Shown piece after piece: positions 6,796-11,128 of a stretch of 64,000 nt of DNA (the stretch's first letter is position 1; the number at the start of each line of letters is the position of its first letter). The stretch is from positions 124,001 to 188,000 of the IMG/VR virus record IMGVR_UViG_3300043464_001630; one strand, 5' to 3'. Source of the DNA: a virus. Below the pieces are notes generated by a model. It was given only the letters and a program-made list of their open reading frames with translations, was not told the origin of the DNA and searched no databases. The position numbers were made by a program, and so were the translations under genes.

Positions 6796-6855
6796 CTCTC
6801 GTACATAATATTTTTTATAGCTTTTTTTAATTTTTTTACATTTTTTATATTTTGG

Positions 6856-6861
6856 TAAATA
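6856..6861 (+). promoter_or_regulatory. late-type TAAATA before the terminase N-fragment
   Basis: Five bases to the ATG at 6867; decides that start over TTG 6852. Confidence 0.6.
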
Positions 6862-6866
6862 ACGAC

Positions 6867-7241
6867 ATGCCTAGAAAACCAAAAAAAGACATATACATGA
6901 ACAATCCAGCCCTACCAACAGTAGAGGCTCAATTCGAATGGACACCACAAATGGTGGCGGAATTAAAGAAGTGTAAAGAAAATATATTACATTTCGCGGA
7001 AAACCATTTTTATATTATTTCACTAGACGAAGGTAAACAAAAAATAACACTACATCCATATCAAAAGAGGGCATTAAGGATGATTAGGGACAATCGAAAT
7101 TCCATCATGTTGTTTAGTCGTCAAACTGGAAAATGCCTTGACGCCAACAACTTATGTAAGATTCGTGATAAAAAAACTGGTGAAATACAGGAACTTACGA
7201 TAAAAAAGATTTTTGATATTTCTGCTCTTGAAAAAGAGTGA
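6867..7241 (+). CDS. terminase large subunit, N-terminal fragment fused to a short N-intein
   Basis: First piece of the fractured terminase (T4 gp17 family), the motor ATPase/nuclease that packages DNA. Residues 1-89 are terminase sequence ending in the Walker A region (IMLFSRQTGK). The frame then runs directly into an intein start (CLDANNLCKIRDKKTGEIQE) and stops after only 35 intein residues. I chose ATG 6867 over an in-frame TTG at 6852 because TAAATA ends 5 bases before it. The protein cannot act alone: it lacks everything after Walker A. It should join the product of 8543-11128 by trans-splicing, since residues SRQTGK plus STLATIF rebuild an intact Walker A segment. Confidence 0.85.
   Translation: MPRKPKKDIYMNNPALPTVEAQFEWTPQMVAELKKCKENILHFAENHFYIISLDEGKQKITLHPYQKRALRMIRDNRNSIMLFSRQTGKCLDANNLCKIRDKKTGEIQELTIKKIFDISALEKE
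7134..7238 (+). other. N-intein (35 residues) of a split intein at terminase Walker A
   Basis: It starts with the catalytic Cys of splicing block A right after ...RQTGK and ends at a TGA. Block B (the TxxH-type motif) is not here but in the C-half. The split therefore falls between blocks A and B, unlike the DnaE-type split near the endonuclease site. Short N-inteins of this sort are known from metagenomic TerL split inteins such as AceL-TerL. Confidence 0.8.
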
Positions 7242-7257
7242 GGTCGTTATAAAATAT

Positions 7258-7263
7258 AGGTGA
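7258..7263 (+). promoter_or_regulatory. Shine-Dalgarno-like AGGTGA before the homing endonuclease
   Basis: Three bases before ATG 7267. Most other genes here have no such site, which sets this gene apart as likely acquired. Confidence 0.5.
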
Positions 7264-7266
7264 TTT

Positions 7267-8553
7267 ATGAAATCATCTAAAAACGAAATCAAATATTGCA
7301 AAATCACCGGAAAAGAACTAGATCCAGAAAAACAAAAAGCATCAGGAAATGGCTTATTCATTTCTGGTGCTGTCCGAGCTTTATTCAAAAAGAATAATAA
7401 AGATGTAGAAAAAACTAGAGAAGCTTTGAAGGATTTCTATTGGGTCGAAGAAATTGTAGGATACTATCCGAATTGGATATCTTGTGCCAGAGCTTTAACT
7501 ATGGCAGAAATTTCAGTCGAACAACAAGAAGAGATATACAACAGAGAATTTTTATCTAAGAGTAAATGCCAATTAGAAACATGTAATAAAAACATTCCAT
7601 ACGACATGCGAGGAATATCTGCATGTTGCGTCACTCATTATAATCAAGCATACGCAATCAAAAATAATAAATTTGATATATCTGATTATAAGTACGAATG
7701 TTTGGAATGTGGAATGAAATTTGCCAATAATATTTCTTTAGGAACGCATATTTCTCAGAATCATTTCACATCTGAAGAATATTATATTAAATTTCATAAA
7801 AAGTCAGAAGAAGAAGGACACTGTAAATGGTGTAATAAAGAAACGTCTTTTAATTCTATCCAAGAAGGCTACAACAAATTTTGTTATAACACTAGTTGTA
7901 ATGTGAATTACTATAACAAATACGAAAACCGACACGAAGCTTGTGGGGACGCTATTAGTAAAGGTTTGAAAGAATCACAAAATATGCCAAACCAAATTGG
8001 ATATTGGACTAAAAAAGGCTACACAGAAGAACAAGCAAAAGCTTTAGTATCAGAACGACAAACTACTAATACTGTGCCAAAAATAATGAAGCGAGAACAG
8101 TGCGACGAAAACGAAGCCATTCAAAAAAGAAAAGAAATAACTAAAAAATGGTTAGATTCATTTCCTAAACAAAATTATTCAAATGTTTCGCAAGAATTAT
8201 TTTGGCAGATACATGAAAATATTAAAAATGATTATAAAGAAATTCATTTTGCTACAATTTTAAATGGAACTAAAGTTTCAGATGGAAGTAATAATGAATT
8301 TAGAATTAAAACAGATAAAACTGTTAGATCATTGGATTTTTTCGTAAAAGACTTAAATAAAGTAATCGAATTCAATGGATACTATTGGCATGGTGCAAAA
8401 AATAAACATTACGATGAAACCAAAGATAAACAAAGATTAGATGAATTAAAAAATTTAGGATTATCTGTTTTAATAGTAAACGAACTCGATTACTACGAAA
8501 ACAAATCCAAGATCATAGAACAATGCATAAATTTCATTAACAATGGAAACTAA
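7267..8553 (+). CDS. free-standing homing endonuclease, Vsr-like (EDxHD-type) nuclease with zinc fingers
   Basis: 428 residues, lying between the two halves of the split intein. The N-terminal and middle parts contain Cys/His clusters (CQLETC ~101; YECLECGMKF...H ~143; CKWCNK ~186; a further Cys pair ~210), probably zinc-binding DNA-recognition modules. The C-terminal ~100 residues (RSLDFFVKDLNKVIEFNGYY, then WHGA, KDKQRLDELKNLG and a final E-x-D) match the very-short-patch-repair-like nuclease fold. Homing endonucleases of the fractured-gene arrangement described by Dassa and colleagues have this fold. Unlike its neighbours it has an SD-like AGGTGA (7258-7263) and no TAAATA. Its last 11 bases overlap the start of the next terminase piece, probably coupling translation. 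It likely cuts uninterrupted terminase genes to spread the insertion. Confidence 0.8.
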   Translation: MKSSKNEIKYCKITGKELDPEKQKASGNGLFISGAVRALFKKNNKDVEKTREALKDFYWVEEIVGYYPNWISCARALTMAEISVEQQEEIYNREFLSKSKCQLETCNKNIPYDMRGISACCVTHYNQAYAIKNNKFDISDYKYECLECGMKFANNISLGTHISQNHFTSEEYYIKFHKKSEEEGHCKWCNKETSFNSIQEGYNKFCYNTSCNVNYYNKYENRHEACGDAISKGLKESQNMPNQIGYWTKKGYTEEQAKALVSERQTTNTVPKIMKREQCDENEAIQKRKEITKKWLDSFPKQNYSNVSQELFWQIHENIKNDYKEIHFATILNGTKVSDGSNNEFRIKTDKTVRSLDFFVKDLNKVIEFNGYYWHGAKNKHYDETKDKQRLDELKNLGLSVLIVNELDYYENKSKIIEQCINFINNGN

Positions 8554-8893
8554 AAAATTCATAGAATCCCGTAAAGTCGAAGATTACGAAATATGGACTG
8601 ATGAAGGATGGGCAGATATTCAAGAAGTACATAAAACAATAAAATTTGATGTATGGACGGTAGAAACCGAAAACTTCGAAATACAATGTGCTGACGAACA
8701 CATCGTAATTGGGGAAAATCGTGAAGAAATTTATGTAAAAGATCTAAAAATAGGAGATAAGATCATCACAGAAAATGGACCAGAATCTGTAATTAGAGTA
8801 GAAAAATTAGATGTCGAACCAGAACACATGTATGATCTCAGTATAGATTCAGAAAATCATACATTTTTCTCGAACGGAATCTTATCACATAAC
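8543..8893 (+). other. C-intein (117 residues) of the split intein
   Basis: It contains block B (IQCADEHIVI), a long beta region, block F (MYDLSIDSENHTFFSNG) and block G (SHN), followed by Ser as the +1 nucleophile (AGT at 8894). With the 35-residue N-intein this makes a complete mini-intein of about 150 residues. Confidence 0.85.
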
Positions 8894-11128
8894 AGTACGT
8901 TGGCTACTATTTTTATGCTTTGGGTGGCTATTTTTAATGATGACCAAAGAATATTATTAGTAGCAAACAAAGAAAGTACTGCAAAAGAAATCTTTAGAAG
9001 AATTCGAGTCGCCTACGAAGGATTACCAAACTGGCTAAAAGCACCAGTTACTTATTATGGTCTAGAATCTCTCGAATTACAGAACGGATCTCGTATAAGT
9101 ATAACAACAACAACGGGAACCGCAGGTCGTGGTAGTAGTGCGAATCTGTTGTTTGTGGATGAAATGGACTTTATCGAATGCGTAGAAGGGTCAACTACAA
9201 TAAAATTAAAAAACGTAACAACGGGAAAAATAGAAGAAATGTCTATTAAAGACATGCATGATAATAGTAAACATCTATTAAATTTCGATAATTTTCAAAT
9301 ATTATCAGACGATGGCTGGAAATCATTCAAAGGAATAGTAAAGAACGAGAATATTAGATCTGTTAAATTACTATTTGATGATAATACAGAATTAATATGT
9401 AGCGAAGATCATGAGTTATTATCGGATTCTGGAGAATTCATTTTAGCAAAAAAATCAGAAAACACAAAACTAATTTCTGATAAAGGATTTAAATTTGTAA
9501 AGACTGTTTCGGAAAATGGAAAGATAGATGCGTATGATGTTACCGAAGTAGAAGGTAGTAGATATTACACAAATGGGGTGATATCGCACAATTGTAACAT
9601 GCTGTCTGAGTTTTGGTCTTCTGTGTATCCGATTATTTCTTCTTCTAAAAAATCTAAAATCATTGTGGCATCTACTCCAAAAGATACATCAGGTTTATTG
9701 TACAAGCTTTATGATGGTTCAGTAAAAGGAACAAACAACTGGGCACATATGAAAGTACTGTGGAGTGATGTGCCGGGAAGAGATGAAAAATGGAAGAACG
9801 AAACCATATCAGCTCTTGGAGATGTTGGCACTTTCAGGAGAGAATTTGAGTGTGTGACAGGTGAAACTCTCGTCACCATATTAAACAATAACGAGACTAG
9901 TTCAATTACCATCGAAGAATTGTACAAATTAAATAAAAACGGTATAAAAGTTCTAACTCCTTCTGGATTCAAAAATTTCGATGGTATTCAAAAATTAAAA
10001 AAAGAATGCTTAGAATTAGTTCTTAAAACTACATCATTAAAATGTAGCACAAATCACAAAATTTTGACAAAAGGTGGGGATTTCAAATTTTCAAATGAAT
10101 TAACTGTTGGTGAATTCATAAAAACATCTAACGGATATGATGAAATTGTAAAAATACAAGATTCCGGAGTTTTAGATGTATATGATTTGTTGAATGTAGA
10201 AACAAAACAATATTACACTAATGATATTGTATCACATAATTGCACTTTCGATGAGGTAGGCGAATCCGCAATTGATGAAGGTTTATTCGATGATATGCGA
10301 AAATATACAATGGAGCCTATGTATATTTTTGAAAATGGCTGTTATCTTCTCTGGGAGAAACCAAATCCCGACAGACTTTATGTTGCTGGAGTGGATATTG
10401 CAGAAGGAGTCGGAAAAGATGCTACTGTTATTCAGGTATTAGACATTACAGAACCAACAAGAATAAAACAAGTAGCAATTTATCATAACAATAAAATATC
10501 TCCGTCTGAATTCACACCAAAATTACGAGAAATCTTACAACATTGGGGTGATCCATTAGCAATGATCGAGCGTAATGGTTGTGGTGCGCAAGTTGTTGAT
10601 AACTTAAAAAGAGAATTTAGTTATGATAATATAGTAAACTGGGGAATTAATAAAGTCGCGAACAAAAAATCCATGCAACATGGACTAGTTTCGCATACGA
10701 ACACAAAATATACTGGTGTTATGAACCAGAGATATTGGGTGAATACCATGCGTTGCGTACAGATTAATGATATTAATACGGTATTAGACATGAAAGATTT
10801 TATTAGAACTAAATCTGGACATTGGAGTGCTAAAAACGGAGCGAACGATGACAGAGTGATGGCATTGGTATGGGCTCTTATGATTTTACACGAAGATATT
10901 GCTCCGGTCTATTTCGATATCATAGATAAAGACGAATTCGGAAAACCAAAAGTCATAAAATCTGTGGATTATGGAATAAGATATTTCTCTAATCCAACAT
11001 CTATATACACAAATGAAAAAGACGGAATAGGAGGAGATGCCATGCCAATGGTTTTTGGTGGAGATAATTCAGACAACACAGACTTGGACGATCTGATGAA
11101 TCAAGGATGGAAACCATTAAATTATTAA
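8543..11128 (+). CDS. terminase large subunit, C-terminal piece: C-intein plus two internal mini-inteins
   Basis: 861 codons. In order: C-intein (1-117, ending LSHN), terminase (STLATIF... to Walker B VDEMDFIE), intein 2, terminase (CNMLSEFW... with the SKIIVASTP coupling motif), intein 3, then the rest of the terminase from CTFDEVG. The RNase-H-like nuclease residues are visible: Asp in VAGVDIAEGVGKD, Glu in MIERNGCG and Asp in NDDRVMAL. After splicing with the 6867 product the mature protein would have about 565 residues (89+95+86+295), near T4 gp17 (610). The start ATG overlaps the endonuclease 3' end. The second half may contain no functional motor until all three splicing events occur. 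Confidence 0.9.
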   Translation: METKKFIESRKVEDYEIWTDEGWADIQEVHKTIKFDVWTVETENFEIQCADEHIVIGENREEIYVKDLKIGDKIITENGPESVIRVEKLDVEPEHMYDLSIDSENHTFFSNGILSHNSTLATIFMLWVAIFNDDQRILLVANKESTAKEIFRRIRVAYEGLPNWLKAPVTYYGLESLELQNGSRISITTTTGTAGRGSSANLLFVDEMDFIECVEGSTTIKLKNVTTGKIEEMSIKDMHDNSKHLLNFDNFQILSDDGWKSFKGIVKNENIRSVKLLFDDNTELICSEDHELLSDSGEFILAKKSENTKLISDKGFKFVKTVSENGKIDAYDVTEVEGSRYYTNGVISHNCNMLSEFWSSVYPIISSSKKSKIIVASTPKDTSGLLYKLYDGSVKGTNNWAHMKVLWSDVPGRDEKWKNETISALGDVGTFRREFECVTGETLVTILNNNETSSITIEELYKLNKNGIKVLTPSGFKNFDGIQKLKKECLELVLKTTSLKCSTNHKILTKGGDFKFSNELTVGEFIKTSNGYDEIVKIQDSGVLDVYDLLNVETKQYYTNDIVSHNCTFDEVGESAIDEGLFDDMRKYTMEPMYIFENGCYLLWEKPNPDRLYVAGVDIAEGVGKDATVIQVLDITEPTRIKQVAIYHNNKISPSEFTPKLREILQHWGDPLAMIERNGCGAQVVDNLKREFSYDNIVNWGINKVANKKSMQHGLVSHTNTKYTGVMNQRYWVNTMRCVQINDINTVLDMKDFIRTKSGHWSAKNGANDDRVMALVWALMILHEDIAPVYFDIIDKDEFGKPKVIKSVDYGIRYFSNPTSIYTNEKDGIGGDAMPMVFGGDNSDNTDLDDLMNQGWKPLNY
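9179..9592 (+). other. contiguous mini-intein 2 (138 residues), after terminase Walker B
   Basis: It starts CVEGSTTIKL (block A), has block B LICSEDHELL, and ends YDVTEVEGSRYYTNGVISHN with Cys as the next extein residue. No endonuclease domain fits between the splicing blocks. It is inserted immediately after VDEMDFIE. Confidence 0.9.
9851..10240 (+). other. contiguous mini-intein 3 (130 residues), in the ATPase-nuclease linker
   Basis: It starts CVTGETLVTI (block A), has block B LKCSTNHKIL, and ends YDLLNVETKQYYTNDIVSHN with Cys (10241) as +1 residue. No endonuclease domain. It is inserted after FRREFE, near the boundary between ATPase and nuclease domains. Confidence 0.9.

Follow-up and report, generated by a model that had tools for sequence, protein, structure and literature searches.

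How could a phage make its large terminase from a gene that is broken within the Walker A motif? The question is raised by a 64,000-nucleotide stretch of viral DNA, here called the window, corresponding to positions 124,001–188,000 of IMG/VR record IMGVR_UViG_3300043464_001630. The whole record has 236,391 bases, is classed as linear and is possibly incomplete. In the window, the gene for a T4-type large terminase (terL; product TerL) stops inside the start of an intein. A free-standing putative homing endonuclease gene (HEG) follows, and the rest of the intein and terminase resumes behind it. The overall explanation that we favour, with a probability of roughly 0.88, is that a mini-intein has been fractured, that two proteins are made and trans-spliced, and that the N-terminal intein part (IntN), the HEG and the C-terminal intein part (IntC) form a mobile unit.

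The break in terL and its contiguous counterpart

All parts of the gene lie on the plus strand. The first open reading frame (ORF; 6867–7241) encodes the 89 amino acid (aa) N-extein of TerL (6867–7133), which ends in the SRQTGK of Walker A, and then IntN of intein 1 (7134–7241), which starts at Cys1, has 35 aa and closes with a TGA at 7239–7241. The N-extein matches terminase family phrog_5989 (E 1.7e-19) and aligns without gaps to intact TerL proteins. The endonuclease gene (7267–8553; 428 aa) overlaps, by 11 nucleotides (nt) at its stop codon, the start of IntC (ATGGAAACTAA). The final ORF (8543–11128; 861 aa) begins with the 117 aa IntC (8543–8893), which ends in GILSHN, has Hint/intein Pfam matches and is 83–93% identical to the IntC of six relatives. 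Ser+1 of STLATIF follows at 8894. Every coordinate given for this arrangement in the first-pass annotation holds.

Extein 2 (8894–9178) runs from Ser+1 of Walker A to just past Walker B (VDEMDFIE). Next come contiguous mini-intein 2 (9179–9592; 138 aa), extein 3 (9593–9850), contiguous mini-intein 3 (9851–10240; 130 aa; Cat-TerL/AceL-TerL type, PDB 6dsl CatC, E 1.2e-15) and extein 4 (10241–11128), which carries an RNaseH-like nuclease domain (PF17289, E 3e-10). Both terminase ORFs have TerL family matches. Joined together, the exteins (6867–7133, 8894–9178, 9593–9850 and 10241–11125) give a 565 aa protein with the intact Walker A/B ATPase and RNaseH-like nuclease of T4-type large terminases. 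This protein aligns with the uninterrupted TerL of relatives L010, L025 and L030 without gaps through all three junctions. Thus, linking SRQTGK to STLATIF rebuilds Walker A, as had been claimed; a misalignment of the exteins with intact TerL was looked for, and the alignment runs through the insertion point. An intact terL elsewhere was also sought. Searching the 236,391-base record with the joined TerL returned these four pieces and no second terL. A phrog_2 match (G000:97501-97944) was considered as a second terL and rejected; reading of its translation indicates a PhoH-like ATPase.

We compared the locus with related terL genes from IMG/VR. At the same insertion point, L005 and L008 carry one unbroken mini-intein of 152–153 aa. 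The IntN of the window is 83% and 71% identical, respectively, to the first 35 aa of these contiguous inteins. In a nucleotide alignment, the window departs from the contiguous form after GAAAAAGAG and returns at AAAAATTCATAGAATC, with ~10 intein nt replaced. Because the contiguous form matches both sides of the break, the two halves belong to one intein, which bears out the first-pass annotation. All of the splicing residues are found: Cys1, Asn117 of IntC and Ser+1. The division into 35 and 117 aa, a point that the first-pass annotation did not make, is atypical. Four further contigs (L007, L032, L036 and L038) share both the split and the endonuclease, so chance and assembly artefact are ruled out. 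Across the resulting five independent contigs the junctions are equivalent and the endonucleases are 75–86% identical. The intein 1 tree had too few sites to order the contiguous L005 and L008 forms as ancestral to, or derived from, the fractured forms.

Selection was measured as dN/dS by the Nei–Gojobori method. Values were 0.09–0.16 for the fractured intein (N and C parts together), 0.05–0.10 for IntC of the fractured copies and 0.10–0.24 for the endonuclease; those of the exteins were similar. Both halves of the intein are under purifying selection.

Proposed trans-splicing and its alternatives

We propose that a T4-type terL carried a mini-intein in its Walker A motif and that a free-standing HEG invaded this intein. 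Insertion after intein residue ~35 would have brought in a stop for the N-part, a late-promoter-like and hairpin control region, and a start for the C-part that overlaps the stop of the HEG itself. Two proteins, extN-IntN35 and IntC117-TerL, would be made. The halves would then associate and trans-splice via Cys1, Asn117 of IntC and Ser+1, restoring SRQTGK-STLATIF. Inteins 2 and 3 would splice in cis to yield the 565 aa terminase. At the DNA level, IntN-HEG-IntC would be the mobile unit; the endonuclease would cut terL alleles that lack the intein, after which the complete unit would be copied in along with short flanking stretches of extein.

According to the first-pass annotation, the terminase can exist solely through trans-splicing. 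This we infer from sequence, and non-covalent assembly is also conceivable: the two TerL polypeptides would form a working motor as they are, with the intein remnants as bystanders. A split phage ribonucleotide reductase that functions in pieces is cited in PMC3322345 and PMC10448857. However, the break in TerL passes through the Walker A loop, and Cys1, the C-terminal HN, Ser+1 and the entire IntC are retained under purifying selection. Relatives with up to four pieces, one of them an 11 aa extein, are also hard to square with function without ligation. We therefore regard assembly in pieces as quite improbable.

Removal of the insert at the RNA level, as a group I or II intron or through bypass by frameshifting, appears less likely still. 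There is a precedent in phage ICP1, where terL undergoes RNA splicing next to a T5orf172 homing endonuclease (PMC10448857). In the window, however, an Rfam search found no intron match (the sole match was an implausible miRNA, E 0.6), and we rejected a group I or II intron. The edges of the insert hug the endonuclease ORF, with 25 nt before it and the 11-nt overlap after it. Furthermore, the insertion lies within intein coding sequence, where L005 and L008 carry a protein intein. Equally implausible is a broken pseudogene or misassembly with a functional TerL encoded elsewhere: this metagenomic contig, classed as linear, may lack some of the genome, but the junctions recur in five independent contigs, dN/dS is ~0.1 in all parts and the record has no other terL match.

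Occupancy and probable movement of the TerL inteins

If IntN-HEG-IntC is mobile, what states do the insertion sites take among relatives? Occupancy was scored automatically across related TerL genes and then corrected by reading ORFs. Site 1, at Walker A, is empty in most relatives. It holds a mini-intein in L005 and L008, a longer contiguous intein in L091, L102, L103, L109 and others, and a fractured intein in the five contigs described above. The longer contiguous intein of L102, the one tested, contains LAGLIDADG. Site 2 is empty in some relatives, contiguous in the window, L005 and L088, and fractured in others; in L115 the endonuclease has decayed. In some relatives the fracturing gene at site 2 is of the TnsA-like type found in L013 (Pfam match for L013), with which the endonucleases of L009, L012 and L031 align. 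Other or unclassified ORFs occupy this position in L058, L060, L076, L105 and L109. Site 3 is empty, contiguous, fractured (L013 and L041) or split without an endonuclease (L042, L105 and L114). A fourth site, 1b, is fractured in L109 and L114 and split without an endonuclease in L105. The automatic census had scored site 2 of L114 as occupied; this was rejected, as ORF reading places the gap at site 1b. Sites 2 and 3 thus show the same arrangement as site 1 with other endonuclease types, inserted after 25–35 intein residues. IntN is 25–35 aa long at sites 1–3 and 42–43 aa long at site 1b.

The forms without an endonuclease retain the split. L042:1407-1895 keeps both intein 3 ORFs, and only the ends of the L041 endonuclease (L041:420-1729) remain between them; the L042 endonuclease gene has an internal deletion of ~810 bp between short similar sequences. 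TerL is spread over at least four ORFs in L105 (L105:16-4250) and over three in L109 and L114, with split inteins at sites 1b, 2 and 3. The L105 protein would need three trans-splicing events, and one of its ORFs supplies just the 11 aa extein CLVIDEMAFIE (Walker B).

A near-identical pair of genes bears on movement. L010:3922-5598 has no TerL inteins and L012:4734-7783 has a fractured intein 2; 23 of their 1677 extein bases differ. Nineteen of these differences fall between −46 and +13 of the site 2 insertion (Fisher p 3e-19), which defines a tract of ~60 nt. The 5′ tract of L012 is 86–89% identical to the carriers L031 and L009, compared with 74–75% for the remainder of extein 2. Within the tract, the +1 residue changes from Pro (CCA) in L010 to Cys (TGT) in L012. 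Across site 2, Cys is found at +1 in none of ~57 empty alleles; after the correction for L114, the 13 occupied alleles have Cys (nine) or Thr or Ser (four), these being related rather than independent sequences. The simplest reading of the L010/L012 tract is homing with co-conversion, in which the split intein and endonuclease would have moved as one unit. The alternative is the opposite direction, with the insertion lost by recombination with an empty allele. The first-pass annotation described the endonuclease of the window as unrelated. It is indeed a free-standing gene, but at site 2, where the arrangement is homologous, the endonuclease appears to move together with the split intein, so it is more than an unrelated insert.

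At site 1, occupancy changes at least eight times on the extein 4 tree, and the empty L035 and fractured L038 are close sisters. For L032 and L036, the endonuclease has a pS of 0.28 compared with 0.63 for extein 4. Horizontal movement at site 1 is supported by the L035/L038 pair and by this lower synonymous divergence. A clear co-conversion tract was found neither at site 1 (L035/L038) nor at site 3 (L026/L027); both pairs are too diverged. Sporadic occupancy and apparent horizontal movement at site 1, together with the probable co-conversion at site 2, are the features of a mobile intein.

It is probable, in our judgement, that the fractured intein makes up a whole mobile element, an IntN-HEG-IntC homing unit that would invade intein-less terL directly, co-convert short flanks and, at site 2, bring its own +1 nucleophile. 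On this account, the breaks in TerL inteins, made by at least four kinds of endonuclease, fall almost at one position. Once the endonuclease is lost, plain split inteins would remain (L042, L105 and L114); in the extreme, L105, at least four polypeptides would make up the terminase. By this route, a single gene family would generate split inteins repeatedly.

The putative endonuclease, its possible control region and known systems

What is the inserted gene, and how might it be expressed? The N-terminal part of the protein is zinc-finger-like and the C-terminal part contains RSLDFFV-x-VIEFNGYYWHG, with a Vsr-like (EDxHD) signature. Direct searches of family collections gave weak but consistent matches, to phrog_3339 'homing endonuclease' (E 2.7e-4), to PF18741 REase (REase_MTES_1575; 0.005) and to zf-C2H2 (0.006). 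In a profile comparison, the five site 1 homologues match L114's Vsr-like endonuclease over RSLDFFV...EFNGYYWHG (E 6.6e-4), a protein with matches of its own to phrog_3339 (6e-98) and Pfam Vsr (0.03). Homologues of the protein are 76–86% identical, and residues E344, D357 and H375 are invariant across the five. We tentatively take the endonuclease of the window as a Vsr-like (EDxHD) homing endonuclease. A PDB sequence search with the protein returned nothing informative. Direct profile comparison of the site 1 and site 2 endonucleases gave no match (0.4% probability), and we therefore treat them as different types. The C-terminal ~50 aa of the endonuclease occur in two forms, GYYWHGKKNKHYDETKDKQR or GSYWHSxxSKxVNYSxERDIQR (L032/L036 versus window/L038). 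These forms are discordant with the remainder of the sequence, which suggests recombination inside the endonuclease.

A late-promoter-like TAAATA (6856–6861, within 6852–6866) lies 11 nt upstream of the terL start. It belongs to a set: TAAATA occurs 10–15 nt upstream of 25 of the 47 gene starts in the window, terL included, where 0.26 are expected. This implies a late promoter set nearly on the start codon, and so very short leaders. The same phage encodes a late sigma factor. The gene for this late sigma transcription factor (phrog_234; G000:C1:103528-105030, L124:1029-2531) is itself interrupted by an intein, and a mini-intein also interrupts the T4-type portal protein gene (G000:C1:79351-81588, minus strand; L125:1352-3589).

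The insert carries its own putative control region (7242–7279), with the late-promoter-like TATAAAATATAG and a hairpin covering the endonuclease start codon. Other fractured copies have a corresponding motif: (C)TAAATA in L032 and L036, TAAATA in L038 and, as in the window, TATAAAATATAG in L007. The potential hairpin is found at four of the five loci (z −2.1 in the window and −2.7 to −4.0 in L007, L032 and L036) and not in L038. I-TevI of phage T4 is subject to late-promoter and hairpin control, which the motif and hairpin of the insert resemble. In nearly all fractured loci, the start of IntC lies within the end of the endonuclease gene; the overlap is 11 nt in the window, 14 nt in most site 2 loci and 4 nt in L036. 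The 11-nt overlap is the single case in the window where neighbouring genes on the same strand overlap by more than 1 nt. From the overlap, translation of IntC may be coupled to that of the endonuclease, and expression is predicted to be late.

Several points weigh against the explanation that we favour. Trans-splicing itself, and the activity of the endonuclease, are predicted from sequence. The profile matches on which the family assignment of the endonuclease depends are weak. The pair with the co-conversion tract belongs to site 2, not to site 1 of the window. The late-promoter variant in the insert, TATAAAATA, deviates from the exact TAAATA consensus. For IntN, dN/dS is noisy (0.1–0.76), coming from just 33–35 codons. 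AlphaFold models of the contiguous intein (pLDDT 37) and the endonuclease (pLDDT 50) are too poor for any claim about fold.

Fractured genes, with a free-standing endonuclease gene within a split intein, were reportedly described in 2009 by Dassa and colleagues, in enzymes of DNA synthesis and repair. The window holds a further example of this known arrangement, as the first-pass annotation recognised: the host gene is cut within an intein into separate ORFs, with a free-standing endonuclease gene between the halves. Those cases are reported to share with the locus in the window a conserved phage gene broken in a split intein and control elements carried in; their endonucleases are of the Vsr-like family, to which that of the window may also belong. 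The locus differs from them in its host gene (terminase), in the split at residue 35 rather than at the canonical site and in the length of its genomic context. A further difference is that relatives with contiguous, empty and endonuclease-less alleles accompany the terL of the window.

Atypical splits in TerL are also already known. GOS-TerL (37/115 aa, Ser1/Cys+1) and AceL-TerL (25/104 aa, Cys1/Cys+1) are atypical split inteins (PMC11766414). Like these, intein 1 lies in TerL and combines a short IntN with a long IntC, whose sizes (35/117) come close to theirs. Unlike them, it is at site 1, in Walker A, and has Cys1/Ser+1. Intein 1 is weakly similar to the GOS/AceL/Cat-TerL family (CatC 7e-4, VidaL 1e-4) and falls outside it; the counterpart of that family in this gene is contiguous intein 3 (PDB 6dsl, E 1.2e-15).

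Campylobacter phage CP21, like L005 and L008, has a site 1 TerL intein with the insertion point and family (KFIES...EVHKTIK) of the window's intein 1, but unbroken. In CP21 (L015, HE815464; 2491–6777), terL appears to be fractured at another site by a T5orf172 GIY-YIG gene; this gene lies between two terminase fragments, and its sole annotation is 'hypothetical protein'. In Vibrio phages VP-1 and 1.244.A (L016 and L018), the terminase appears to be split in an intein, with a GIY-YIG domain fused to IntN3. The annotations of all three phages list separate terminase and hypothetical proteins.

The comparative series across relatives, not the window locus alone, raises the interest of these findings. 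Isolated metagenomic fragments have so far been the basis for arguments over the origin of natural split inteins and over their possible spread after splitting. In the present series, a single gene of closely related phages offers empty, contiguous, fractured and endonuclease-less alleles at three sites, together with a near-identical pair, which makes both questions directly testable. The IntN/IntC pairs are candidate short-IntN tools for protein ligation. In L105, an essential protein would be built by serial trans-splicing, an extreme natural instance of the process.
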